A stretch of 62,189 bases of DNA from a virus (IMGVR_UViG_3300042547_000074:1-62189), one strand, 5' to 3'. Positions 1 through 62,189 are shown, counted from the first letter of the stretch. Notes: generated by a model not told the origin, from the sequence alone. Numbers and translations: made by a program.

Positions 1-1200
1 CACGTGCAAGGTCTTGCCCGTAGGGGCTTCGGCCTTGGGGTTGTCGATGATTACCCACAACACAGGGGCTGGGTAGTTGCTGCCCCAGTTGTCGAAGACA
101 TAGCCGTCCGTCACCATGATGATGCAGCCGGGCTTGATCTTGTTGTCGTGCATGTACTTGGGCACACAATTGGCATTAGTGCCGCCGCCACCCTTGGGTC
201 GCACCTTGGACAGCAGCCCATCGTAGTCGCCTTGGGTGAAGCTGTCGTGGCCGGCTACCTCCGTATCCCAATACAACACGTCGAGCTTGTCGGGCTTGGT
301 AGTGTTAGCAATCTCGACCACCTCGGTGAAGATGCGGCTGATGGGTGACGGACTGCCTGACCACATCGAGCCAGACAAGTCTGCGCCTAGCACAGCATGG
401 CCAAGCGACTCACCGTGCATCGAAGGCAGGTACACCTCCATACCCACGAAGCGACGGTTGAGCCTGCGCCACGTAGCGTCATCCTTGGCAACACAGTGGC
501 TGCTGAAGAACTCCCGCAACGCAGCGCGCCAGTCGACGGCAGGACGCAGCAGCTCACCTACTTCAGCAGGCATGTCACCCTTGCCAGCGCCACACTTCTT
601 GGCCTCGGCCTCACCACGCCGCAGTGCATGGTCGATCTCCTTGTCCAGCGCGTCACGGTCTGCCTTGTCCATCTCCTTGGCATCGTCCCAGCCATGCTCG
701 TCGAAGCTCGGCTGGCCCGCGCCGCTATCCTGCTTCTGGTCTGCGCCTTGCTCCTGCTTCAGTATGTCGAAGATTTGCTTGGCGCTCATGCCATCGAACC
801 GCTCGTCATACAGGCCCATGCGGGTGCCATCTGGGTTGCGCGGGAACTTGCACACGCTCTCGGTAGGGTCGGCCTTCACGATGATGCGGTTAACCACGTA
901 GTCACAAGCGATGTTGGCGAGCTCGTGGTCTGCCTCGTACAGCTTGCGCCATGTAGTCAGGTGCCGAAGCCCCTTGTGAACAGCCTCGTGCAGACACACG
1001 AAGGACAGCTCTGCTACAGGCAGCGCCTCGACGAAGGCAGTGCCATACACCTCGTCACGGCCATTGGTGTACGCCGTAGCAGTCTTGTCGCACAGGCTTG
1101 TCTTGCCTACCGACATAAGCCCAGCCCACAGGCGCAGGCCCGGTAGCTGCGACCGCATCACGTCGATCTTGGCCTTCTTCAGTTTGCGTTCTGGTTGCAT
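1..1200 (-). CDS. Metallopeptidase/VWA protein (DUF2201-type), N-terminal 400 residues
   Basis: The gene starts at 1200 (ATG, preceded by AAGGAGCAAG) and runs off the window at base 1. Across the circle junction it continues to a stop at 61996, giving about 402 aa. Residues 71-75 read HEAVH, a zinc-peptidase HExxH motif, followed by a helix with NIACDYVVN, as in the DUF2201 N-terminal putative metallopeptidase domain. From about residue 270 there is a von Willebrand A-like fold with MIDAS elements DLSGSM (274-279), GGGGT and VTDG. Gln/Asp-rich linker lies between. It is the last of three genes after a MoxR-type AAA+ ATPase; MoxR ATPases commonly work with VWA partners. Substrate unknown. Domain call is strong, function is inference. 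Confidence 0.85.
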   Translation of the reverse strand, partial: MQPERKLKKAKIDVMRSQLPGLRLWAGLMSVGKTSLCDKTATAYTNGRDEVYGTAFVEALPVAELSFVCLHEAVHKGLRHLTTWRKLYEADHELANIACDYVVNRIIVKADPTESVCKFPRNPDGTRMGLYDERFDGMSAKQIFDILKQEQGADQKQDSGAGQPSFDEHGWDDAKEMDKADRDALDKEIDHALRRGEAEAKKCGAGKGDMPAEVGELLRPAVDWRAALREFFSSHCVAKDDATWRRLNRRFVGMEVYLPSMHGESLGHAVLGADLSGSMWSGSPSPISRIFTEVVEIANTTKPDKLDVLYWDTEVAGHDSFTQGDYDGLLSKVRPKGGGGTNANCVPKYMHDNKIKPGCIIMVTDGYVFDNWGSNYPAPVLWVIIDNPKAEAPTGKTLHV

Positions 1201-1211
1201 GGTCTTGCTCC

Positions 1212-2072
1212 TTACCACTCGTAGGATTTCAGAATCCCGTTCAACTTATCCTTCAGGTCGGTGCGTACACCGGAGTCTTCCTTCACATCGTCGATGTCCA
1301 CACCAGCGATGGCCTTCTCAAGGTCGCGCCGCGCCTGCTCCAGTGACGGGTCCTTGGTCAGGTTCAGGTGGGTCAGCATCTTGCACATCTCGGCAGCGTT
1401 ACCGATGAACGTATCGTGCCAGCGGGTCACCGCTCCATCTGGTGCAGCTTCAACGTCAGTCAGCTTCTTCGTCATCGCACTGATGGTCTTGTGCAGCTTG
1501 TCCCACGGCTCACGCATGGCGTCAGCCAACCGGCTATCGAAGGCAGCATCGTACTGGCGACGCATATCCTCTAGCTCCTGCTTCGGCAGGTCTAAGCGGA
1601 AGTCACCGGACTCAGGCACCGGGGTAAACACCAGACGGAAGCCGAACTTGCTACGCACTTCCTCGACGGACGGGTAGTCCTCTGGATCATACAGCGCACC
1701 CAGATGCTTAGGTGCGTCAGCCAGCAGGCGCGGGTAGTCACGGAAGAACTGCTCCTGCTTGTCCTCGAAGTAGGTCTGCCGACCGTTCATCTCTGACTTG
1801 TAGTCAAAGAACAGGGAGGTGGGCAGCAGGCGCGGGCCACGGTCAGACCACGCCATCGTCAACTGGTTGTGACGGAGCCTACAGCTAGCGGCGTAGTCGG
1901 CCAGCTCCTTGCGTAGAGACGAGCCTGCCGTGAGGTTCTTGCGGAACTGACCTGCGTCCGTAGTGGCGCTGTTGTCGTTGGTCACTTGTCGGGTCACCGT
2001 CTTGTCCACCTTGTTGGCAGTCCAGACAGAGATGTTCAACTCCACAAGCATGGAGGATGATGCGATGCTCAT
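1212..2072 (-). CDS. Unknown protein between MoxR ATPase and VWA metallopeptidase (DUF3150-like?)
   Basis: A 286-aa soluble, charged, mostly helical protein with no catalytic motif I recognise. It lies 11 bp upstream of the metallopeptidase gene and 53 bp after the AAA+ gene, so the three are probably one operon. The ATG at 2072 follows TAGGAGCAAAC, the shared early start motif. The size and its place between an AAA+ and a VWA gene recall phage proteins labelled DUF3150, but I hold that only from memory of gene order. The 53-bp gap upstream contains a TTATCCCTA element and a CCCTA/TAGGG inverted repeat, but not a full copy of the 24-bp palindrome. Confidence 0.75.
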   Translation of the reverse strand: MSIASSSMLVELNISVWTANKVDKTVTRQVTNDNSATTDAGQFRKNLTAGSSLRKELADYAASCRLRHNQLTMAWSDRGPRLLPTSLFFDYKSEMNGRQTYFEDKQEQFFRDYPRLLADAPKHLGALYDPEDYPSVEEVRSKFGFRLVFTPVPESGDFRLDLPKQELEDMRRQYDAAFDSRLADAMREPWDKLHKTISAMTKKLTDVEAAPDGAVTRWHDTFIGNAAEMCKMLTHLNLTKDPSLEQARRDLEKAIAGVDIDDVKEDSGVRTDLKDKLNGILKSYEW

Positions 2073-2125
2073 TAGTTTGCTCCTAGTTTGTTATCCCTAA
2101 GCGCGCGGCGATAGGGCTTGACGGA

Positions 2126-3202
2126 TTACAAAATATCTGCGTTCTCAGCCGCCCACTTGGTGAAGTCGCCATTGCGGAAGGCGATGGTCTGCTTGGTCTT
2201 GCTACGTGCGAGGCTGGTGCAGAACACAGCCTGATGCTCAGCCTCCATGCGAGACACATACTTCATGATGGCCGAGATGGTGTCGGCCTCCACTGCGCGC
2301 TCAAGGTTGAACAGCAGGGTGATGATTGCACCTACGGACGTAGGCACAGGTGCCGTGTCGGGTGCCTTGAGGATAAGCTCACGTGCAGGCAGCTCATCTT
2401 GGAACGCAATGAAGTGCTGCATGTCCCGCGCCGCAGGCTCACCGATGGTGCCGATGAGACCAGCCAGCAGCATGTTCTCGGTAAACTTCTCACGCTGCCA
2501 CACGATGTGCGATGCCTTCTCCAGCGAACGCGGGGTCACAACTTGGCCTACCTGCACACGCTTGGGGTTATCGACGTAGGGGTTGCTTGGGTCGAAGTCG
2601 TCATCGCGGAACGATGCCAGCGCAGTCGGGGTCTGGTTCACCCATGCCAGCACAACAGGGTGGATGCCATTGGCAGCGCCCCACACCAGCCACTCTTCGA
2701 CGGATGGTTGACGCACCTCGACGACGGTCATGCGGTTCATGGTATGGGCAAGGAACGTATCGCCCAGCCCCTCCTCGGACAGGTTGCAAGTAACAATGGC
2801 CATACTGCCAGCAGGCATCATCTTATCCGCAACGCGCCTAGGGTTCTCCAACATGGGCAACACCATGTTCTGGATACTGCGCGGTGCCTTGGCCAGCTCG
2901 TCCAGTATGATAACCACGGGCTTGCCAGTGGTCAGTTTGAGCGCCTCGTTGGTGAAGAACCGCATGACGCCGGCCTCCTTGTCGGGGAACGGGATAGCCG
3001 TATCGCCCTCGGCCTTGGCCGTCATGTCGAAGCAGGCGTATTCGTATTCGTCACCCAGATACTCACGCAGCATGGGTAGGATGCTTGTCTTGCCGATGCC
3101 CTTGGGGCCGCGCAGCATGACGTTGTTTGTTGTGCCGACAGCGGCGATGAACTGCGCTGCCTCCTTGAGGGAGACACGCGAACCGAAGTTGATTGAAGTC
3201 AT
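2126..3202 (-). CDS. MoxR-type AAA+ ATPase
   Basis: A 358-aa single-domain ATPase. The Walker A motif GPKGIGKTS is at 32-40, Walker B VVIILDELAK at 96-105 (catalytic DE 101-102) and a sensor-1 Asn at 140 in AIVTCN. The layout matches MoxR/CobS-like AAA+ proteins, which remodel or load protein partners, often VWA proteins. The VWA/metallopeptidase encoded two genes downstream is the obvious candidate partner. The ATG at 3202 has GAAGGAGCAAAC in front of it, a 24-bp palindrome at 3221-3244 and a promoter at 3310-3338, so it probably heads its own transcription unit. A cobalt-chelatase role (CobS) is less likely, as no cobalamin gene is present. Confidence 0.9.
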   Translation of the reverse strand: MTSINFGSRVSLKEAAQFIAAVGTTNNVMLRGPKGIGKTSILPMLREYLGDEYEYACFDMTAKAEGDTAIPFPDKEAGVMRFFTNEALKLTTGKPVVIILDELAKAPRSIQNMVLPMLENPRRVADKMMPAGSMAIVTCNLSEEGLGDTFLAHTMNRMTVVEVRQPSVEEWLVWGAANGIHPVVLAWVNQTPTALASFRDDDFDPSNPYVDNPKRVQVGQVVTPRSLEKASHIVWQREKFTENMLLAGLIGTIGEPAARDMQHFIAFQDELPARELILKAPDTAPVPTSVGAIITLLFNLERAVEADTISAIMKYVSRMEAEHQAVFCTSLARSKTKQTIAFRNGDFTKWAAENADIL

Positions 3203-3205
3203 TGT

Positions 3206-3216
3206 GTTTGCTCCTT
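3206..3216 (-). promoter_or_regulatory. Start-associated extended Shine-Dalgarno AAGGAGCAAAC
   Basis: The minus strand reads AAGGAGCAAAC just before ATG 3202. The same or a near-identical element precedes the early genes starting at 1200, 2072, 4124, 51393, 52979, 55158, 55957, 57234, 60655, 61557, 61763 and 61959. AAGGAG is an ordinary anti-16S match; the constant CAAAC/CAAG extension is not explained by that pairing. Confidence 0.8.
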
Positions 3217-5371: not shown

Positions 5372-5406
5372 AAAAAAGCCCCGCTTGGCGCGGGGCCAAG
5401 CGGGGC
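5372..5406 (-). terminator. Intrinsic terminator, minus strand
   Basis: Perfect 11-bp stem GCCCCGCTTGG (5378-5388) / CCAAGCGGGGC (5396-5406) with a 7-base loop. It is followed on the minus strand by six T (complement of 5372-5377). It closes the unit that starts at 6435, insulating the repeat region downstream. Confidence 0.8.
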
Positions 5407-5616: not shown

Positions 5617-6435
5617 TTATGCCTTAGCGGCAGCGGCAGCTTCTGCCTTGATGATTGCAGCGCAATCGCGGGCAAGGGCTTTGACGAAAGCAATCCGTTG
5701 GTTGGTGATTGCTTCCTCCCCAGCGGCAACCTTTTTGATGTAAGCAGTCGCGGCCCGCAATACGTCCGTAGGGGAAGCGGCAGCCGGGGCAGCCGGAGCC
5801 TTAGCCGGAGCCTTGCCCTTGCCGGGAGCGTTGCCGCTATTGGTACCCTTGGCCGTCACCTTGGCGATAAGGGCAGACGTCGATTTCTTGGCAGCGTCGA
5901 GCAAGCCGCTGGCCACCGTAGTGCCATTGCCGCCAGTCAACGCCAGTTTGTTGCCGGCCATGCTTGCGGCAATCATGTTATCAGTAAGCGCAACAGCGGC
6001 GGGCAGCACCTTACCCTTAATCAGCGACCATGCGCTATCGGCAGCCGGAGTAGTGGCATCATTCACCCCGGCAGCATACGCCAGCACGGCAGCCTTAAAG
6101 CCTGTTATGCGAGCGCGCTGTTCCTTACCTGCTACGTAGAACGGGGCAGCCTTGCGGGCGTAATCGTAAAGGCTTGCATGCTTCGTTTCCGTCACGTTGC
6201 CCTTTTTGTCGCGGGCTTGAAATTCAAAGCGATGCGCCAGCAAGGAAGCATTGGCCATGCCAGCAATCAGGATATCGGTTGCGCTGCCTTGCGCTACCTT
6301 GCCGGCAGCGAGCTGCTTACCGGCAGCGAGGGCAGCGTTCACGCCAGTGCGAAGGGTAGCAGCCTGTTCCGGAGTGAAGCCGGCAATGCCAGCGGCAGCA
6401 ACGGGGGAAGCCTTGCGAGTGTTACGTGCAGTCAT
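5617..6435 (-). CDS. Ala/Lys-rich early protein, unknown
   Basis: A 272-aa protein with about a quarter Ala and many Lys. There is an ordered region up to about residue 190, then a low-complexity GKGKAPAKAPAAPAAA linker and a helical tail ending in an Ala stretch. The tail composition is histone- or DNA-binder-like, but no domain is recognised. It is the first gene of the minus-strand arc beside the divergent control region, with promoter 6490-6518 and palindrome copy 5 upstream. The SD is AAAGGTAAAC. Its own terminators suggest separate, probably high, expression. A longer opposite-strand frame over it (5293-6591) is rejected as a shadow. Confidence 0.75.
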   Translation of the reverse strand: MTARNTRKASPVAAAGIAGFTPEQAATLRTGVNAALAAGKQLAAGKVAQGSATDILIAGMANASLLAHRFEFQARDKKGNVTETKHASLYDYARKAAPFYVAGKEQRARITGFKAAVLAYAAGVNDATTPAADSAWSLIKGKVLPAAVALTDNMIAASMAGNKLALTGGNGTTVASGLLDAAKKSTSALIAKVTAKGTNSGNAPGKGKAPAKAPAAPAAASPTDVLRAATAYIKKVAAGEEAITNQRIAFVKALARDCAAIIKAEAAAAAKA

Positions 6436-41059: not shown

Positions 41060-44000
41060 GTGCCCGACGTCCGGATGCCTAACGGTACCATTATTCGCGG
41101 CGTACCTGATGGGGTTTCGCGGGATGATTTGCTTCGCCGCCTACAGGGCAGCGGATACGACACAAAAGCGCTTCTTGGGCCGCCTGTTGCCTCAGAAGCC
41201 GAGGTGCCGCAAGCACCAGAAGAACCCCAAGAAGAACTCGGCTTCTTTGGTGCGCTGAAACGCGGTTTCACCACGCTGGGTGATGTGCCGGAAGCCTTTG
41301 GTTTTGCCACGGGTAAGGAAGGTGCGCGCGAGGAGCTGGTCAAGGCGCAGGAAGGCGAAGAGAAGCGAGCCGAAGGGTTTGGTCTGGATAAGACGCTAGG
41401 TGAGAACGTACAGGCGCTCAAGGAGCTGGCCGGCGAGTCTCTTGGCTTTATGGGGGCCCCGCTTGCTGCGGGCGCTGCTGGCTCTCTTGCCGGCGGACCT
41501 ATTGGTGGGGGTATCGCAGCCGCCGCTACGCTTCTTTCCCAGTACGGTGTCCAGAACTTGGCCCGTCAGGCTCAGGAAGACAAGGCGCGGGAGGAGCGCG
41601 GCGAAGCTCCACTGGGTCCTATGCCCGGTCGCGCTGCCGCTGCCGCTGTGGGTCAAGCCGGTCTAGATGTCGCTGGTTTTGCACTCCCTGTATTGCGCCC
41701 AGTGGCTGCGGCGTTCCCGTTCCTTCGCCCGCTTATCGGTATTGGAGGTAAAAAGGCAGCGGCGGAAACGGCTGAAGCTATCGTCGGGGCAGCGGCCAAG
41801 AATCAGCTCACCATCAAGGGTGGCATTGCCCGTGGTATCGCGCAGGGGGTGGCGTTCGAAATCCCCCAAGAAACGGCACAGACGGTGCTGGAGCGGTGGC
41901 AAGCTAAGCTCCCCCTCGATGACGACTCCGCAATTGAGGAGTATAAGCAAGCGGCTATCGGTGCGGCTGTCCTCGGCGGTGGCTTCGGTGGTATCGGCGG
42001 CGGTGTAAATGTTGTGCGGGAGCGCGCCGGCGAAGCCAAAGAGGCTAAAGCGCTGGAAGCGGCGGCGGGACTTGAGCGGAGTACCCCTGAAGAAAAAGCT
42101 AGGTTTGAGTCCTTGCTGACGGCTGCGGTAAACGAGTATGCCAACGCGAACCCGAGCACTCCCCCGGCTGATATCTTTAAGGCGCTGCGGGACGACGGCA
42201 CCATCCGTTCCCTAGGCAATCAGGCGAGGGCAAATGTCGAAGCGACGCAAGCGCAGGCGGAAGCGGGAGCAGGACTGGATGGAGGAGCAGGTCAACCTGA
42301 CGTGGATGTCGCTGGAGCAGCTGGGGCAGGCGTTCCACCTGCTGGCGCTGCCGCGACCACCGGAGAAGCTACCCAAACCGTTCCACAAACTGAACCCGTC
42401 GGAATGGCTGGCACTGGAGAGCCTGCTGGTGTTGCTACTGGCGCAGAAGCGAGACCAGACGGTACACTGACGCCGGAGGCGACTGCATCCGAAACGCAGG
42501 CCGCCGAAGACTTTTACCCAGACCTGATGCCGGCCTACATGGCTGAAACCAGCGTAGCTAAGCAGCGCGCCCTAGCCCCGGTGGTAGCTAATATTTTTTC
42601 GAAGCTGACCGGGCTTGAGGGGTTCAACTCCCCCAAGATCAAAGCGCTGCCGGAGAACATCCAGAAGGCGTATAACGCCACGGTTGCGGCTGTCCTTAAT
42701 GGCGTGAAGCCCGGATACAAGGGAAAAGTCATCAACCCTGAAACAATCGCTCAGCAGAAAATGGCTGAGTTCAATGTCACGCTACCCGAAGTAGCTACGC
42801 AAGCTGCGCCTGAAGTTGCGCCTGCCGAGACGGCTGCGCCGCCTACATATACGTACGCAGACCTAGTAGCAGAAGCTGATTCGCTTGTAGCGCCAGACCC
42901 AGAGTTGGTTCTTCCGGGCCAGCTAACTGCCCAGCAGTTCCAGCAGTTCAGTATCCAAGCGGAGCAGATGCCCGCGCTGGCAGAGCAAGGCGTAGAAGTA
43001 CCTAGCGCCTTCGAATTGCGGCAAGACCTGTACAAGGTGGCTGGACGCGAAGCGCCGCCATTGGCAGCTCCGACTGCGCCTGAGCCAGCGGCTGCTGAAG
43101 AATATGACCCAGAGACCCTCGCTGCGGCTACTGCGCAGGCACCGAGCGTATGGGCCACGCTGAGCAAGCAGGTGGAAGGCAAGCCGCCAGCTGCATGGGA
43201 TACACTGGAAGAAGAGGCGCAAGACGAGTTCATCGCCGCCATTGCTAATACTCCGGTTGACGCAACGCCCGTTGCTCGGGTCAAAGCTATCCGTCCTGTC
43301 TTTGACGCTATCCGTACCGGTAAGCCCATCCCGAAGGCTGCCGCTGCTCCCGCCGCTGCGGCTGCACCTGCGCCCGAGCCGCAAATCACAGTTGAAGCTG
43401 AGCCCGCTCCCAAGGCAGGCGGCGCTGGTAAGCCGCCGAAGCCGCCGAAACCACCAAAGCCGCCTATTGGCGCTGCTCCGGAGCCCGGTCCGAAACCCAA
43501 AAAGCCCCGCGTCATCAAGATCAATCAGGCCAAACTCAAGTGGGCCATGCGTGAGGCTGGGCTGCTGCAACGGCGCGACAACGTCTTCCGTAAGAAACTA
43601 CTGCGGAGTAAAAATACCCATCAGCTGAGCGACAGCGTTGGTGAAATGTTCTTTGGTTCCCGTGCTTATCAGGGGCCGATGAATTTGCTGCGCGCTTTGC
43701 GCGATAGCCTGACGCCGCAGGCCAAGAGAGCCATGCTGCCGTTCCTTCCCACCGACGACATTACCCGGTGGGTGGGGGATCGTCTCAAGAACGTAGCGGT
43801 CATCAACAAGCTGATCGACGACATGACGGTCTACCGCAACAAGCGCCTTGAGAAGACGAGCGCCATCCAGAACAAGTGGATGAAGTTCACGACGGCTTTC
43901 CCCAAGGGGGCCGACATCCTCAACGCGCTTACCAAGCTGGCTGACTTCCACGACGTCGACCCGACGCTGGCCGCTACGCCAGAAGAATATGCCAAGAGCG

Positions 44001-46684
44001 ACCCTGAGATGAAGCGGCTCATCAAGGAGAACGCGTCCAAGGCCAGACGTGACAATCGACAGGACGCCATCGACGAGGTCTATGCCGCGAAGCGCCAGCT
44101 CATGCAGCGTGAGAACGGTAGTGGTGCAGGGTTGGAAATCTTCAAGCTGGCTAAGGACGCATACCGCCGCAACCTGATCGACTCCTATATCCTGACCCTG
44201 AACCGCATCACAGGGGCAAGTTTGAGCGCCGAAGCCGAGAAGATAGCAGTTTCTAGTATAAAGTACATGTACAAGGAGGCGCTTGCCCGCCGAGTCTACT
44301 TCCCAACCATGCGCTATGGCCGCTTCTGGATGAGCGTTGGTAAAGGGAAAAACGTCGAGTACTACATGTTCGAGAGCGCGTTTGAGCGCGACATGGCCTT
44401 TACCCAGCGAAAGCGCGACATGGAGGCAGAAAACGACCCGCGCGATATGGACAGGGGTAATGACTACAAGGAAGTCACGGACTACCTGACAAAGGGTAAT
44501 GACGCCAGTGCGGCCTTGAAAGAAGTCTTTAACCAGCTGGACTCTGGCAATTTAGAGGACACCGCGCAGCTAAAAGACACTGTCTTCCAGATGTATCTGC
44601 TTGCTCTCCCAGAAGGTGATATGCGTAAGCGGTTTAGCCACCGCCGCTACGTCACCGGCTTTGGCACGGATGCCCTGCGCGACTTTGCTAACTCACAGAG
44701 CCGGGCTGCTAGCCAGCTGGCGCGGTTGTCCTACGCCCACCAAGTTCGGAGCGCGAAAACGGCGCTTGAGGGTGAAATTAAGGGTGCGCCTGACCGTGTC
44801 GGTATGGAGCCCTTTGTAAACGAGATATCTAAGCGGGCAGATGCTGAAATCGACCCGCCGGTCCGTGGCGGCTTCTACGGCCTGCTCGATAAGTTTGCTG
44901 GGCTAGGTAACAAGTTCGTCTTCCTGTGGATGCTGACATCGCCCAAGTCGGCGCTGATCCAAGCTACGCAGCTGCACACGGTAGGCTTGCCGGTCTTGTC
45001 GGACGAGTTCGGCTTCCGCAAGGTTATGGACATCGCTGGGCGCTACAGCATGGACATTATCCTCGGCAACAAGCTGGCTATCCATCGCAAGGACAACAAC
45101 GGCGACATCATCACCGAGTTCAACGTCAACATGCGTGATGCCAAGTTCATGCAGGACTTGGCTAAGTCAGACCCGCAGAAGCACAAGCTGCTACTGGAAG
45201 CTTACGACTACGCCGACCAGCGGGGGACCTTTGCGTCCACGTTCATCAGTGACCTGAACGAAACGGCTTCGCGCCCCACCAAGGTAGGCACCGTCAAGTC
45301 GGCGCTGAAGGAAGGCGATGTGCTGTCCGCTGCCAAGCAGGGCGGCGATGCCATGATGCAGTTTATGTCCGCTGGCTTCCACCAGATGGAGAATATGAAC
45401 CGCCAGATCATGTACATGACCAGCTTCGAGCTGGCGTACGAGCAGGCGAAAAAGAGCGGCATGAGCGATGCCGCTGCCAAGGAGAAGGCCATGGAGCGCG
45501 CACTGAAGGTGACGCGCGAGACCATGTTCAACTACAGCAACTACAACAAGCCTCGCGCTTTCAAGAACCCGGCTGGGCGTGTTGCCTTCCAGTTCATGAC
45601 CTACCCAGTCATGATGACCTCCTACCTTGTGCGTAACGCCAAGAACATGCTGCCCCTAATCGGCAACCCGGAAGGGAAGATGAGCGCAGCCAAGCGGCTG
45701 TTCGGTACCCTTGGTATGACGGCGATGTACGCAGGTATGACCGGCTTGCCGCTGTATGGTGTGTTCATGATGGCGGCTGAAGCTGCGCGCGAGATGCTGC
45801 GCGATGACGACGACTTCGCTCCTTACGAAGACGATAAGGGTAACCCAGTAGGTAAGGTCGACCTGAAGTATTGGTTTGAGAACAGCTGGCTGCCAGAGAC
45901 TTTTGGTCCGGACAGCAGCATAGCCAAAACGCTTGGCCTCCCTCCTGAGCTGGCGGTGCTGCTGGAGCGCAGCGTCAAGTTCGGCCCTATCTCGGCCCTT
46001 AGTGATATGAACCTCGCCGCCTCTACGTCGCTGAACGACCTGTTCTTCCGTGGCGATATCAAAGCCGACAACTTGGAAGGCCAGTTCAAGGAGATACTCT
46101 ACAACCAGATGATGGGCCCGCTGGGCGGCCTTATCAGTAACATGACTCGTGGAGTGCAGCTGTACGAAGAAGGTGAGACGACCCGCGCCATGGAGCTTAT
46201 GCTGCCTGCGTTCGTCAAGGGCGGTGTGCGCGCCTCGCGTCTGAGCGACGAAGGTCTGAAGACCATCGACGGGAAAGTCCTCAAGGACGCAGACTTCTTC
46301 ACCGAAGGTAAACTTTTCAACCAAGTCCTTGGCTTCGGTAGCACCGAGACCTACGAGATGCAGAAGCAGAACTTCGAGGGTAAGCAGCTCATCGACGAGA
46401 TTAAGGCGGAGCGCCAAAGCATCATCCAGACGGTTAAAAACGCGGAACTCCGTAGCCTCGACAATCCTACGGAAGCCAACCTTAAGGCTGTGGACCGCGC
46501 TTACCGAGAACTAGAGGTGTTCGACAACAAGTTCCCGCTGTCACCCGTGGGTGGTGATACCATCGGCACCGCCATTTCGAACGCGCTGGAGGAGCAGGCC
46601 GGCAGCATTGGCGGGTCGGAGATTGAACCGGAATATCCGGTCATGGCCGACGTCCAAGACCGGCGTATCAACCGAGGCAAATAA
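41060..46684 (+). CDS. Giant internal virion/ejection protein (LPD38, PLxRFG-like)
   Basis: A 1874-aa protein, GTG start. There is an N-terminal MPDVRMPNGTIIRGVPDGVS module, hydrophobic Gly/Ala segments at about 135-160, 195-225 and 305-320, and long Pro/Ala-rich linkers (370-480, 570-820). From about 830 it is a large helical region. QFMSAGFHQMENMNRQI and KNPAGRVAFQFMTYPVMM (about 1505) mark polyvalent-protein domains LPD38/PLxRFG. Hydrophobic helices near 1550-1590 could be a pore. The role is probably DNA ejection, like T7 gp16. No lytic transglycosylase motif is clear. Confidence 0.78.
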   Translation: MPDVRMPNGTIIRGVPDGVSRDDLLRRLQGSGYDTKALLGPPVASEAEVPQAPEEPQEELGFFGALKRGFTTLGDVPEAFGFATGKEGAREELVKAQEGEEKRAEGFGLDKTLGENVQALKELAGESLGFMGAPLAAGAAGSLAGGPIGGGIAAAATLLSQYGVQNLARQAQEDKAREERGEAPLGPMPGRAAAAAVGQAGLDVAGFALPVLRPVAAAFPFLRPLIGIGGKKAAAETAEAIVGAAAKNQLTIKGGIARGIAQGVAFEIPQETAQTVLERWQAKLPLDDDSAIEEYKQAAIGAAVLGGGFGGIGGGVNVVRERAGEAKEAKALEAAAGLERSTPEEKARFESLLTAAVNEYANANPSTPPADIFKALRDDGTIRSLGNQARANVEATQAQAEAGAGLDGGAGQPDVDVAGAAGAGVPPAGAAATTGEATQTVPQTEPVGMAGTGEPAGVATGAEARPDGTLTPEATASETQAAEDFYPDLMPAYMAETSVAKQRALAPVVANIFSKLTGLEGFNSPKIKALPENIQKAYNATVAAVLNGVKPGYKGKVINPETIAQQKMAEFNVTLPEVATQAAPEVAPAETAAPPTYTYADLVAEADSLVAPDPELVLPGQLTAQQFQQFSIQAEQMPALAEQGVEVPSAFELRQDLYKVAGREAPPLAAPTAPEPAAAEEYDPETLAAATAQAPSVWATLSKQVEGKPPAAWDTLEEEAQDEFIAAIANTPVDATPVARVKAIRPVFDAIRTGKPIPKAAAAPAAAAAPAPEPQITVEAEPAPKAGGAGKPPKPPKPPKPPIGAAPEPGPKPKKPRVIKINQAKLKWAMREAGLLQRRDNVFRKKLLRSKNTHQLSDSVGEMFFGSRAYQGPMNLLRALRDSLTPQAKRAMLPFLPTDDITRWVGDRLKNVAVINKLIDDMTVYRNKRLEKTSAIQNKWMKFTTAFPKGADILNALTKLADFHDVDPTLAATPEEYAKSDPEMKRLIKENASKARRDNRQDAIDEVYAAKRQLMQRENGSGAGLEIFKLAKDAYRRNLIDSYILTLNRITGASLSAEAEKIAVSSIKYMYKEALARRVYFPTMRYGRFWMSVGKGKNVEYYMFESAFERDMAFTQRKRDMEAENDPRDMDRGNDYKEVTDYLTKGNDASAALKEVFNQLDSGNLEDTAQLKDTVFQMYLLALPEGDMRKRFSHRRYVTGFGTDALRDFANSQSRAASQLARLSYAHQVRSAKTALEGEIKGAPDRVGMEPFVNEISKRADAEIDPPVRGGFYGLLDKFAGLGNKFVFLWMLTSPKSALIQATQLHTVGLPVLSDEFGFRKVMDIAGRYSMDIILGNKLAIHRKDNNGDIITEFNVNMRDAKFMQDLAKSDPQKHKLLLEAYDYADQRGTFASTFISDLNETASRPTKVGTVKSALKEGDVLSAAKQGGDAMMQFMSAGFHQMENMNRQIMYMTSFELAYEQAKKSGMSDAAAKEKAMERALKVTRETMFNYSNYNKPRAFKNPAGRVAFQFMTYPVMMTSYLVRNAKNMLPLIGNPEGKMSAAKRLFGTLGMTAMYAGMTGLPLYGVFMMAAEAAREMLRDDDDFAPYEDDKGNPVGKVDLKYWFENSWLPETFGPDSSIAKTLGLPPELAVLLERSVKFGPISALSDMNLAASTSLNDLFFRGDIKADNLEGQFKEILYNQMMGPLGGLISNMTRGVQLYEEGETTRAMELMLPAFVKGGVRASRLSDEGLKTIDGKVLKDADFFTEGKLFNQVLGFGSTETYEMQKQNFEGKQLIDEIKAERQSIIQTVKNAELRSLDNPTEANLKAVDRAYRELEVFDNKFPLSPVGGDTIGTAISNALEEQAGSIGGSEIEPEYPVMADVQDRRINRGK

Positions 46685-57234: not shown

Positions 57235-57676
57235 GATCTGCTCCTTTGTCGGTGTACTTCGCCTTCAGGACGTCATCGTAGCAATTCTGGGCTAAATGGA
57301 TTACGTCTTTCAGGAAGTCAGCTGCGATAACCCAGTCCGTCTCCTTCAGCTTGAGTAAGTCCCTACCTAAAACTTGCCCATCTTCGCCGTCCCAGCGGAA
57401 CCTGAGCTTAATCCCTTCGACTTTTTCTGCGTAGTACTTCGCATTGTACTTTGCATGGTAGGCTGGGTTTTTAGCCTTCCACTTTCGTTGGTGAGCGTTT
57501 TTACATGCCCTACATTTCCGCGCGCCGCTCGATGTATAAATAATGTTGTCCCCCTCAAAAGGGTGCCCGCGCTTACACACAAGCTTCTTCGGCCTTCCGC
57601 GCGGCCTTCCGCTCCGCCGTTTCGGTAGGGGGTCGTACCCCAGCGTGTTTTCCAAGTCTTCAATCTCACCCGCCAT
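57224..57676 (-). CDS. Zinc-finger DNA-binding protein, HNH-associated type
   Basis: A 150-aa protein; start 57676 fixed by GGGAGAGAG. A basic RRSGRPRGRPKK patch precedes CKRGHPFEG and CRACKN, a Cys/His cluster typical of phage HNH proteins, but I do not see the full nuclease core. The rest is helical. Overlaps the DNA polymerase stop by 11 bp. Confidence 0.65.
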   Translation of the reverse strand: MAGEIEDLENTLGYDPLPKRRSGRPRGRPKKLVCKRGHPFEGDNIIYTSSGARKCRACKNAHQRKWKAKNPAYHAKYNAKYYAEKVEGIKLRFRWDGEDGQVLGRDLLKLKETDWVIAADFLKDVIHLAQNCYDDVLKAKYTDKGADHGG

Positions 57677-59480
57677 AACTCTCTCCCATCTTGCTCTCAC
57701 AGTTTAACGGCAACGCCGTTGCCCACTTCGGGCGGATACGCATACACTGCTCCACATAACTCCGGGCCTCGTCGGCTTCCTCCTGCGGTGCTACCGCCAC
57801 CACGCTATCGTGGACGGTCATAGCGACCTTGTACCTCCGGGCGATCATCAGCATCTGGTTAGCGATGACGATGCGGGCCAGTGCCTGACAAATATTCTCG
57901 ACGCACTTGCCGCCGTATATCCGCGTAGGGATAACCGCTCGGCCCTTCTTGGTGTCGTAGACTAGCTCCTGCCTATTGTTGTCTTTCAGTTCGAAGCGCA
58001 GGTTAGGGTAGCGAAGACGCAACAGGTTGGGCAGCACGATACCCTCGATGACATCCAGCTTCATACCTTCGCCCAGCGTGGTGGGGTTACCGACTACCAA
58101 GGACTCCAGCGCGTCACCTGTATTGTCCCACAGCTTAGGTATGTAGGGGTAGGTCTCCCGATACACCGAGATGATGTGCTCACACTCCCCTAGCTCCAGC
58201 GTCACACCAAACGTCTTCAACTGCGCCTGAAACTTCTTGGCCCCCATGCCGTAGCCTGCACCAAGGATGGTAGTCTTACCCACGAACCGCTGGTCAGCCG
58301 TGACCTCGTCAATAGGCACACCATAGATGGATGACGCCATGATGCGGTACACATCCTCGCCCTTGTCGAACGCCTCGACCAAGTCCCACTGCCCAGCCAG
58401 CCACGCCAAGGTGCGCGCTTCGATCTGGCTGGAGTCGCAGTCGATAACCACGTAGCCGGGAGGTGCCTTGATGGCCTTCTTCAGCGGTGACTTGCGCGGC
58501 AGGTTCTGGAGGTTGACCTTGTCGTCGCCGCCGAACCGCCCAGTGTGAGCTGCGTAGTAGCGTAGGGGGACAGGCAGCAGACCGCGCTCAGCGATACGGA
58601 TAAACCGCTCCGTCCTTGTCTCTTCAAGAGTGCTCTTCACCCCTAGCCGCGCAGCGACAATGGCCTGCACCTGATCGTTCTCATGGTCCAACAGTGCCTT
58701 GAACGCCTCATCATTCTTGGCAAAAGCGTAGGTCTTCTTGCCCGTTGTCGGGCTGATCTTCTTAGGTGGGACAACACCATGGGAGGTTAGCAATTCTGCT
58801 AACTTAGGATTGCTCATCAGCTCAGCCCTGTCGTAGTTGAGCTTGTCCATGAGCGTTTCTTTATGCGCTTGCACTGACCCAAGATGCGCTTCCAGCGCCG
58901 CCTTGTCCAAGGTTAGCACCGGCTCGGTGAACATACGCATGGTCAGATCGATGAGCTGAAGCTCCTCCTTGGGGAACCCCTCCAGCAGTTTCATCGCCAG
59001 CTTGTACGTCAGCTCAGTGTCGTTGATGCAGTAATCCCCGTAGGCCGCCAGCTCTTCCGGCGTGAAGTCCAGCCGGCGCTTACCCAGCGCGTTGATGACC
59101 TCGGTACCCTTGACGCCCAGCCCGTACCGCTCGGCCAGCTTAGCTAGGCTGTTACCCGCATCAGGCCCGTCGATGGCCCGTGCCATAGACAGCGTATCCA
59201 CAATGCGCTTGGGTCGGATGTCGAACCGCCAGTTCAGGATAGCCATGTCGAACATCGCGTTGTGGGCGATGGCGATGCCGTTGGCCCAGTCGAACCTGTC
59301 CAGCCAAGCCTTGGTCTGCTTACGGGTGCCGGAGAACCACTGCGCCGGCTCGTCGTCCACCTTTACGGATACACCGATAGCCTCAAAGCGCGAGTCACGA
59401 ACATACTCCTCGGTAGTTACCTTGGAGAGACTGTACTGCTGGCTGTAATAGGTTTCGAAATCCACCGTCAGTATGGTCAC
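57666..59480 (-). CDS. polA: DNA polymerase, family A
   Basis: A 604-aa enzyme; start GTG 59480 in the GTGA overlap with the upstream gene. The 3'-5' exonuclease motifs VDFET (6-10), AHNAMFD (72-78) and YCINDTELTY (about 155) are intact. Polymerase motif A is VIDCDSSQIEARTL, motif B RFVGKTTILGAGYGMG, motif C AMTVHDSVVA. Motif C carries HDS where family A enzymes usually have HDE. No 5'-3' exonuclease domain; length is near T7 gp5. Confidence 0.93.
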   Translation of the reverse strand: MTILTVDFETYYSQQYSLSKVTTEEYVRDSRFEAIGVSVKVDDEPAQWFSGTRKQTKAWLDRFDWANGIAIAHNAMFDMAILNWRFDIRPKRIVDTLSMARAIDGPDAGNSLAKLAERYGLGVKGTEVINALGKRRLDFTPEELAAYGDYCINDTELTYKLAMKLLEGFPKEELQLIDLTMRMFTEPVLTLDKAALEAHLGSVQAHKETLMDKLNYDRAELMSNPKLAELLTSHGVVPPKKISPTTGKKTYAFAKNDEAFKALLDHENDQVQAIVAARLGVKSTLEETRTERFIRIAERGLLPVPLRYYAAHTGRFGGDDKVNLQNLPRKSPLKKAIKAPPGYVVIDCDSSQIEARTLAWLAGQWDLVEAFDKGEDVYRIMASSIYGVPIDEVTADQRFVGKTTILGAGYGMGAKKFQAQLKTFGVTLELGECEHIISVYRETYPYIPKLWDNTGDALESLVVGNPTTLGEGMKLDVIEGIVLPNLLRLRYPNLRFELKDNNRQELVYDTKKGRAVIPTRIYGGKCVENICQALARIVIANQMLMIARRYKVAMTVHDSVVAVAPQEEADEARSYVEQCMRIRPKWATALPLNCESKMGESYGG

Positions 59481-59650
59481 TGCGTTTTTTCCCTCAATGT
59501 CGATGCCTTTGCCTGCCACAGGTGCGCCTTGGCCCGCTCGGACAGCACCACTGGTCTCATTGCCCCGTCAGGGTAGCGCCAGTAGAACCGCCGATTGTGG
59601 ATGACTACCCGTGCATTTGCGCTAAGGCGGCGTTTGATTTTTGTAGCCAT
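59477..59650 (-). CDS. 57-aa basic protein
   Basis: Start 59650 with AGAAGGTG. Begins MATKIKRRLSANARVVIHNRR, strongly basic, with FYWRYPDG: a possible DNA- or RNA-binding factor coupled to the polymerase (GTGA). The longer frame to 59761 overlaps the neighbour without a start site and is dropped. Confidence 0.6.
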   Translation of the reverse strand: MATKIKRRLSANARVVIHNRRFYWRYPDGAMRPVVLSERAKAHLWQAKASTLREKTQ

Positions 59651-59972: not shown

Positions 59973-60353
59973 TCACTCGTTTTCCTCTAAAGTCAGCGCG
60001 TCGGGCATCAGCTTGATGATGCGCTGCACTTCCATCACAGCTTCAGCGTAAGCTACCTTAACGGCGCGGATGCGCGCCATCGCATGGGTCATCTGCTCTT
60101 CAATGCTAAGGGAAGTCGTCTTGCTTAACTCAAGTCCGAACAAATCCAACAATTCCTTCACTTCATGTAGGGTCTTGCGCCCGAAGTTAGGGATGCGAAG
60201 AAGTTCTGATTCCGACTTGATTACAAGGTCACGAAGGGTGCGGATGCCCTCATCGAAAAAGCAGTTGAGCGCGCGCACGGAAAACTCCAGCTCCTCCACT
60301 CGAACGTCCAACGGGTCACGGTCACCCAGTATCTTTTTAAGCCACAAATCCAT
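59973..60353 (-). CDS. Orphan RNA polymerase alpha C-terminal domain protein
   Basis: A 126-aa protein. Residues 11-76 align without gaps to the RpoA C-terminal domain: EELEFSVRALNCF and LLRIPNFGRKTLHEVKELL. Residues matching E. coli R265 (R27), N268 (N30), C269 (C31), G296 (G58), K298 (K60) and E302 (E64), which contact UP-element DNA, are kept; S299 is Thr. E20, E21 and E23 match the acidic 261 determinant that touches sigma. The rest (77-126) is a phage-specific helical tail; there is no alpha N-domain, so it cannot replace alpha. ATG 60353 shares one base with the VRR-NUC stop. Probable transcription regulator. Confidence 0.88.
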   Translation of the reverse strand: MDLWLKKILGDRDPLDVRVEELEFSVRALNCFFDEGIRTLRDLVIKSESELLRIPNFGRKTLHEVKELLDLFGLELSKTTSLSIEEQMTHAMARIRAVKVAYAEAVMEVQRIIKLMPDALTLEENE

Positions 60354-60655
60354 CACTCACCTCCTTTAAGCTTCCTGATTATGTCGCGCGTCGAGTCCCA
60401 GTTCTCTTCGTTCACGACAACGGCTACGCCGCCTGCGCTACGTATCTGCTCGATCTCATGCACCTGAAGCGCGGTTGGTTTGTTCGTGCCTGCCTTGCAC
60501 TCGATAGCCAGAAACTTCCCCGCCACGCAGCAGATGACATCGGGAACACCGCTCCGTCCGTATCCATGCGTAGCAGGGAAGAAGTAGTAGATACCCTCCT
60601 CGCGGAGAATTTTGACTACCTTGGCTTTGACCTTGCCTTCAGGGGTAAGTGCCAT
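60353..60655 (-). CDS. VRR-NUC nuclease
   Basis: A 100-aa protein with GVPDVICCVAGKFLAIECKAG (split D and ExK core of the PD-(D/E)XK fold) and the family's HGYGRSG and VNEENW elements. Stand-alone VRR-NUC proteins act on branched DNA. Start AAGGAGCAAACG-ATG, promoter 60677-60704 directly upstream. Overlaps the alpha-CTD gene by one base, so the two are made together. Confidence 0.9.
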   Translation of the reverse strand: MALTPEGKVKAKVVKILREEGIYYFFPATHGYGRSGVPDVICCVAGKFLAIECKAGTNKPTALQVHEIEQIRSAGGVAVVVNEENWDSTRDIIRKLKGGE

Positions 60656-60705: not shown

Positions 60706-61557
60706 TTAGTCGAGCAAGAAAAACGTCTCTCGGTCTACGCGCATACCGACACCGGCAACGAACGCCTTATCTTCCATGAGCTTCAGCATACCCAAGGTCG
60801 CGCGCTGCTTCTCGGTCAGGTCATCGAAGGTAACAACACGGGATGGTTTGTCGTGCTGACTAATCACCATTTGGTCACCGCGCATAAACAGGGTCGCGCT
60901 TCCGTCACTCGTGAGCGCCCGGTACGCCTTGTCCGTAGCCTCACGATGCTCACGCAATTCACGCAGGTCGATGTGGTCACAGCCAGTGGTGTATGTCTTG
61001 AGTGTCTCCCAGTTGGCTTCGATGTACGCTGCAAGGGATTCGGTCGCCTTGCTCTTGGCACGATGATACGTGTGACTAGCGTTGTTGTACGTAGTGGAGA
61101 GGGTGGCGCTAATCTTCTTGGCTGCATCCACGGCCAGCTCGTCGAGTGACTTCACACCGAACGAGTCCAGTACCTTCTTAGTGGCAACGCCTACCTTGGT
61201 GCTGAAGCTGCCGCTACCACGCTGCCTGCCTGCTTCCACACGGTGATTGTTTAGGTAGTAGCGGGTCTCACCCGTGCGGTAGTGGCGCTCAACCCACACA
61301 CGGCCAAGCTCCTCGTTGCCATCGTACACGTCGAAGTTACGCAGCTCTTGCCCCTCATTGTCGTAGACACGCTCGGTACTCTTGAACCGCCATGTCGGGC
61401 GCTTCACCCGCAAGGCGTCAATGAACCGGGCCATAGAAGGAGCCACCACAGCGGTGCCCTCCTTGCCGTAGCTGCTCCAGTTTTTCTGAACCTCCAGCAC
61501 CACAGAGGTGCCACCCATCGGGTAGAAGTAGTCGTTCTTGATGTCGTCCATGAACAT
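60706..61557 (-). CDS. Unknown 283-aa early protein
   Basis: A soluble, mixed alpha/beta protein; the N-terminal 40% is beta-rich (RVWVERHYRTGETRYYLN) and the middle helical and Lys/Ala-rich (VATKKVLDSFGVKSLDELA). No recognised domain. Start AAGGAGCAAGCAC-ATG. It may be a single-strand or capsid-associated early factor, but that would be a guess. Confidence 0.72.
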   Translation of the reverse strand: MFMDDIKNDYFYPMGGTSVVLEVQKNWSSYGKEGTAVVAPSMARFIDALRVKRPTWRFKSTERVYDNEGQELRNFDVYDGNEELGRVWVERHYRTGETRYYLNNHRVEAGRQRGSGSFSTKVGVATKKVLDSFGVKSLDELAVDAAKKISATLSTTYNNASHTYHRAKSKATESLAAYIEANWETLKTYTTGCDHIDLRELREHREATDKAYRALTSDGSATLFMRGDQMVISQHDKPSRVVTFDDLTEKQRATLGMLKLMEDKAFVAGVGMRVDRETFFLLD

Positions 61558-61995: not shown

Positions 61996-62189
61996 TTACA
62001 GCGTCACGTGCAAGGTCTTGCCCGTAGGGGCTTCGGCCTTGGGGTTGTCGATGATTACCCACAACACAGGGGCTGGGTAGTTGCTGCCCCAGTTGTCGAA
62101 GACATAGCCGTCCGTCACCATGATGATGCAGTCGGGCTTGATCTTGTTGTCGTGCATGTACTTGGGCACACAGTCGGCGCTCGTGCCGC
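61996..62189 (-). CDS. Metallopeptidase/VWA protein, C-terminal part across the window end
   Basis: The last residues of the gene at 1-1200, re-read at the other end of the window and ending ...KTLHVTL with TAA at 61996. Bases 62005-62189 repeat 1-185 with six differences. At protein level these are G to D, N to D, N to S and one silent change, all in the VWA-like domain, so two variants were joined at the circle. Confidence 0.85.
   Translation of the reverse strand, partial: GTSADCVPKYMHDNKIKPDCIIMVTDGYVFDNWGSNYPAPVLWVIIDNPKAEAPTGKTLHVTL
62005..62189. repeat. Terminal overlap repeating bases 1-185
   Basis: 179 of 185 bases match 1-185, with differences at window positions 128, 169, 171, 175, 176 and 178 clustered toward one end. 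This is the join of a circular or terminally redundant genome. Confidence 0.9.

Follow-up and report, generated by a model that had tools for sequence, protein, structure and literature searches.

Do three adjacent genes in a virus sequence, encoding a MoxR-like AAA+ ATPase, a 286-aa protein and a protein with both zincin-like and VWA domains, specify the parts of a single machine, and on what would such a machine act? We addressed this question in a 62,189-base virus sequence (IMGVR_UViG_3300042547_000074), the whole stretch of which is referred to here as the window. All three open reading frames described in the original prediction were found, intact and in one direction on the minus strand (Table 1). 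They are referred to below as the trio.

Genome layout and start motif

The ends of the window (1-185 and 62005-62189) overlap by 185 nt, of which 179 are identical and 6 are mismatched, which makes it probable that the window is a tailed-phage genome of about 62 kb, either circular or circularly permuted. The record is classed as linear; with its terminal mismatches it is probably circular with strain variation. A search with the first 20 kb of the window found no DNA-level relatives among named phages. Rightward genes between 7,086 and 46,684 form the structural block, which includes terminase, portal, capsid and tail proteins and ends with a gene (41060-46684, plus strand) for an 1874-aa protein with matches to DarB-like antirestriction and LPD39 polyvalent proteins. 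The leftward block encodes a family A DNA polymerase, an Hjc-like resolvase, a PD-(D/E)XK nuclease, an SNF2-type helicase and a DUF927 primase/helicase-like protein. The trio sits in this leftward block, near its upstream end and in the orientation opposite to the structural genes. The same block encodes a 127-aa protein (59973-60356, minus strand) with an RNA polymerase alpha C-terminal domain (PF03118, E 6e-21), which could be a mimic of the host alpha subunit that redirects transcription. A strong terminator-like hairpin (5377-5406, minus strand; 12 pairs and a T-rich tail) lies after a minus-strand ORF at 5617-6435, and probably separates the leftward block from that ORF.

The three genes had been predicted to share a start motif, and this was confirmed: GGAGCAA-N2-7-ATG occurs at nine minus-strand sites in the window and at none on the plus strand, compared with 0.8 expected, and none of 100 shuffles reached nine. 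The motif is common to the trio and the leftward block and marks the leftward gene set. The single promoter also proposed for the three genes was not borne out, as several small same-strand genes lie upstream of the trio and promoter matches were near chance level.

Table 1. Features of the window discussed in the text
Feature	Position	Strand	Basis
Zincin-like and VWA protein, first 400 of about 402 codons	1..1200	-	DUF2201_N E 6e-26, DUF2201 E 7e-11
Start motif GGAGCAAGACCATG, zincin-VWA gene	1198..1211	-	shared motif
DUF3150-like third component, 286 aa	1212..2072	-	profile-profile and structural matches
Start motif GGAGCAAACTAATG, DUF3150-like gene	2070..2083	-	shared motif
MoxR-like AAA+ ATPase, 358 aa	2126..3202	-	AAA_5 E 4e-7; PHROG 1297 ATPase E 5e-41
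Start motif GGAGCAAACACAATG, ATPase gene	3200..3214	-	shared motif
DNA polymerase family A	57666..59519	-	PF00476 E 3e-37; leftward-block context
283-aa neighbour, function unknown	60706..61557	-	in 78/81 related phage loci; context, not core
End of zincin-VWA gene at other contig end	61996..62187	-	ORF and terminal overlap; gives last codons (TL, stop)

The ATPase and the zincin-VWA protein

The ATPase cleared the Pfam cut-off for AAA_5 and has an AAA+ core with Walker A (GPKGIGKT), Walker B (LDE), sensor 1 (N140) and two Arg residues (R157 and R225). At the aligned positions of about 120 relatives, the Walker A G/G/K, the Walker B D and E/D, the sensor-1 N and both Arg were kept in essentially all, in agreement with the intact Walker motifs originally described. 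The MoxR-type AAA_3 model (PF07726) did not list the window ATPase at E 0.1 and gave a weak match in the relative from phage MinM2. The nearest solved relatives are Midasin, NorQ and CbbQ, and across the sampled loci the ATPase gene was partnered with a VWA protein gene, which is a feature of the MoxR family.

The zincin-VWA gene is interrupted by the contig end and completed at 61996-62187, across the circular junction. It is likely to start at ATG 1200 and not at GTG 1218, judging from the GGAGCAA motif and the starts of homologues, which gives a protein of about 402 aa. Both of its Pfam matches exceeded their cut-offs (DUF2201_N, 92 bits against 23.2; the VWA-like DUF2201, 42.7 bits against 26.4). 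HEAVH is followed by NIACD, and the VWA motifs DLSGS...GGT...TDG form a MIDAS that includes T347 and D371, such that the combination of HEAVH and VWA MIDAS first noticed in this protein is real. The MIDAS D, S, S, T and D were present in all 129 aligned VWA relatives. Loss of HExxH in homologues had been named as an observation that would count against the original prediction; the motif was instead kept in 127/129, counting two loci (L035 and L045) in which a one-residue insertion gives HEAGGH. The two losses are both plasmid copies, from Paraburkholderia/Variovorax plasmids (L104, 15941-17218; L105, 7935-9221), in which the MIDAS and both partner genes remain. This suggests that cutting is not required everywhere, and that the motor and VWA parts are more essential than the peptidase site. 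We regard the zincin domain as a putative peptidase, with proteolysis predicted from its motifs. Comparison of the window with close relatives gave dN/dS values of 0.13-0.22 for all three genes.

The same family is represented by PHROG 1314, whose label 'HNH endonuclease' has been propagated onto many phage annotations. We rejected this label, since Pfam gives DUF2201_N and DUF2201 and no HNH domain.

The middle protein is related to DUF3150

The 286-aa protein is mixed alpha/beta in its N-terminal half and helical in its C-terminal half. On its own it gave no Pfam match, and is thus below the gathering score of DUF3150 (PF11348); one relative (L014) scored 22.1 bits, with 24.9 needed. Profile-profile comparison (hhalign) matched the protein to relatives on Burkholderiales, Rhodovastum and Acetobacteraceae replicons and in phage MinM2 at E 2e-73. 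Through the plasmid relatives it reached the Pfam DUF3150 proteins of gammaproteobacterial plasmids at E 4e-11, and directly at E 6e-7. The best Foldseek match of its AlphaFold model (mean pLDDT 77) among viral models was a DUF3150 protein (E 4e-17). By these profile and model comparisons, the 286-aa protein is a distant relative of DUF3150 at the superfamily level.

Solved structures gave no PDB sequence match and no convincing Foldseek match, and a second VIA look returned just generic helical bundles across the C-terminal half. There was no PADLOC match to the 286-aa protein and no meaningful match in the defence library. A hidden DUF3150 protein was also considered in RHph_TM3_14A and CRP-7, where profile comparison found the neighbour genes to be unrelated. 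Three phage records (OQ594354, OL906435 and PP438419), each of 65,014 bp, encode DUF3150 proteins that are 100% identical, yet bear different names and hosts.

The three genes are linked in phages

Viral contigs were searched with the 286-aa protein, giving at least 80 loci, which were clustered at 90% identity. Among the matches listed, the trio was complete and on a single strand in every one of the 22 non-redundant viral loci that had sufficient upstream DNA. Gene order varied: among the matches listed, complete non-redundant loci had the order ATPase-VWA-middle in 22 cases, VWA-ATPase-middle in 7 and ATPase-middle-VWA in 2. Since this sample had been picked by a member of the trio, we drew a second sample by the DNA polymerase, consisting, without de-replication, of 26 loci that extended 6 kb or more upstream. 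The trio was present in 23 of these (22 within the locus and one across contig ends) and none of the three genes in the other three, with no real partial trio in any of the 26. The three trio-less contigs, of 14-40 kb, lack all three genes along their whole length and may be fragments. The same trio was found in phage MinM2, and a genome scan for chromosomal copies, limited in its reach, found just four relatives. Random separation of the partners in relatives, which would have spoken against a module, was never seen in the sampled loci. The three genes are an obligate set, strongly supported as one module, as originally proposed.

Plasmids carry the trio and a diverged form of it

Genes for a MoxR-like ATPase, a DUF3150-like protein and a zincin-VWA protein occur in the window's order on plasmids of Rhodovastum, Cupriavidus, Paraburkholderia and Variovorax, and two of these plasmid trios are directly upstream of type IV secretion genes. 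Matches to DUF3150 were present in 1139 plasmid records, of which 983 are conjugative. Widespread among conjugative plasmids is a diverged form of the trio, in which a CbbQ_C-type ATPase and a true DUF3150 protein are accompanied by a CobT/NorD-like VWA protein. In the examples read this form usually adjoins recT/bet and exo, with ssb-recT-exo neighbours. Its ATPases match the phage ATPase at E 5e-8.

Plasmid pCAR1 carries this form as ORF101-103 (MoxR-DUF3150-VWA); ORF100-103 were described in 2009, with ORF101 as MoxR-like and ORF103 as a VWA protein (PMC2642839). The pCAR1-type trio resembles that of the window in its three kinds of protein, encoded in the same order on one strand, but differs in its CbbQ_C-type ATPase, in its recT/bet-exo neighbours and in its longer CobT/NorD-like VWA protein, which has an HExxH of its own and no DUF2201 match. 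In pCAR1-type VWA proteins, one of which is annotated NorD, the HExxH and a following N and D are invariant, and these proteins align weakly with the phage zincin domain. When plasmid Rts1 was deleted systematically, the list of 32 conjugation genes did not include those between exo and orf239 (PMC10838148), so no role in laboratory transfer is seen for them, which speaks against our reading below. However, in Rts1 (L116, 11030-14192) the VWA member of the trio appears to be interrupted by IS2.

The distribution of the trio bears on whether its linkage is chance synteny, that is, three unrelated early genes that lie side by side by descent. A gene can be retained in this way, as a fourth (the 283-aa neighbour, a family without a Pfam or PHROG match) is kept alongside in the close phage group, outside the plasmid module. 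We considered this gene as a further member of the module and rejected it, since it is missing from the plasmid loci and from MinM2, and we treat it as lineage synteny. The linkage of the trio itself outlasts changes in order and spans phages and plasmids, which makes chance synteny highly improbable and argues for one three-part machine.

Comparison with described systems

The original prediction could name no known system with these three parts. Part of the set was in fact known. Iyer et al. (2021) described, from jumbo phages of group 2.2, a pair consisting of a MoxR AAA+ ATPase and a vWA-metallopeptidase (PMC7824862) in which, as in the window, the vWA protein is fused to an N-terminal metallopeptidase domain. 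That system was described as a pair, whereas the set found here always adds a DUF3150-like protein and occurs also on plasmids. Adjacent and homologous ATPase and zincin-VWA proteins are also encoded by N4-like phages (Schitoviridae) as gp24 and gp25, with about 20-30% identity to the window proteins. Profile matches identified this pair in three loci (L016, L017 and L018), in addition to the annotation of LUZ7, in which the ATPase/peptidase pair adjoins helicase and DNA polymerase genes. No DUF3150-like gene was detected in L016, the one N4-like locus that was profile-tested. In N4 itself, gp24 and gp25 are transcribed in the middle phase and not in the late one (PMC4193335).

MoxR and vWA proteins are also joined by a third conserved component in the MoxR-vWA ternary conflict systems of Kaur et al. 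(2020) (PMC7159879). There it is VMAP, iSTAND, FtsH or a beta-propeller, mostly in multicellular bacteria; that of the window is none of these, being DUF3150-like and carried by mobile elements. NorQ/NorD, RavA/ViaA and CbbQ/CbbO share with the window the ATPase-VWA partnership, and remodel a protein target, but their clients are cellular and they have no DUF3150 partner. For NorQ/NorD the MoxR/VWA partnership is established, as is docking on the MoxR ring, and ring and VWA partner twist the client (PMC13036017). We use NorQ/NorD as a model for the working of the trio, and not as a claim of membership.

Neither DUF3150 nor the trio was found named in the literature searched, which covered few subscription papers. 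The pair of MoxR ATPase and vWA-metallopeptidase was already known, and pCAR1 ORF101-103 is an instance of the MoxR-DUF3150-VWA arrangement; the trio as a conserved unit of phages and plasmids was absent from the literature searched, which is not proof of novelty.

Proposed function of the trio

With moderate confidence, based on sequence comparison, we propose that the trio would be one ATP-driven machine of the MoxR/VWA type, acting early in infection and remodelling, and perhaps cutting, its target. Remodelling of a protein target had been suggested before and fits the MoxR/VWA families. The complex formation, proteolysis, timing and target that we infer are as follows. The ATPase would form a hexameric ring, on which the VWA domain of the third protein would dock while gripping the target through its MIDAS, and cycles of ATP would pull or twist the gripped target. 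The machine would always need the DUF3150-like protein as its third part, which most likely serves as an adaptor or scaffold and chooses the target, and the attached zincin domain of the VWA protein, in the window's branch, would probably cut the target presented to it. This target is most likely a protein met during establishment, replication or repair of the element's DNA; candidates are host and defence proteins, and parts of the complexes by which the element itself replicates or recombines. Early expression is suggested by gene position. Plasmid carriage, the replication-side position, the middle timing of the N4 transcripts and the neighbours in LUZ7 favour early action on proteins of the host, of defence or of DNA metabolism. 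Known defence families gave no match to the trio apart from one weak match.

Virion maturation was among the roles originally suggested. The MoxR/vWA pair would then be a head or tail chaperone, with the zincin domain trimming structural proteins. The jumbo-phage study drew an analogy to Acidianus two-tailed virus in proposing virion assembly for this pair (PMC7824862), and Pfam recognised no separate prohead protease between the portal and capsid genes of the window. However, plasmids, which make no virion, carry the same trio, the trio of the window is placed among the leftward replication genes, apart from the structural block, and the N4 transcripts are not late. Its occurrence on plasmids and its position on the replication side both speak against a general function in virion maturation, and we consider this role improbable.

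The precedent of NorQ/NorD, which inserts iron (PMC13036017), raises another alternative, in which a metal held by HExxH/NxxxD is delivered into a client enzyme by the MoxR/VWA machine without proteolysis. The retention of HExxH, N and D in pCAR1-type VWA proteins and their weak alignment with the phage domain are consistent with this, but no conserved gene for a client metalloenzyme was seen beside the trio. Few metalloenzyme clients are known to be common to phages and plasmids, and we think metal insertion just as doubtful as a virion role.

Somewhat less improbable, though still unlikely, is that the trio purely helps the element's own replication or recombination, loading or stripping polymerase, helicase, SSB or recombinase complexes and leaving host proteins untouched. 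Elements of three kinds have replication or recombination genes as neighbours: the window has DNA polymerase A and the Hjc-like resolvase, N4-like phages have helicase and polymerase, and plasmids have ssb-recT-exo. Neighbourhood is, however, weak evidence of a target, and three of the 26 polymerase-bearing relatives are without the trio, which suggests that replication is possible without it, unless these contigs are fragments.

Within our preferred reading of an early remodelling machine, a more specific form can be put forward tentatively, as a possibility. The trio may represent a further MoxR-vWA ternary class, with DUF3150 as its third subunit, in phages and conjugative plasmids. As a protease or a disassembly machine driven by its AAA+ part, it may disarm proteins of the host or of defence during the establishment of foreign DNA.

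These results define three genes that can be tested as a unit and for which clear point mutations can be made, and correct a misleading 'HNH endonuclease' label on many phage annotations. They tie the unstudied DUF3150 family to a motor pair kept in phages and conjugative plasmids. That these elements share the trio suggests a requirement common to invading DNA, and not virion building.
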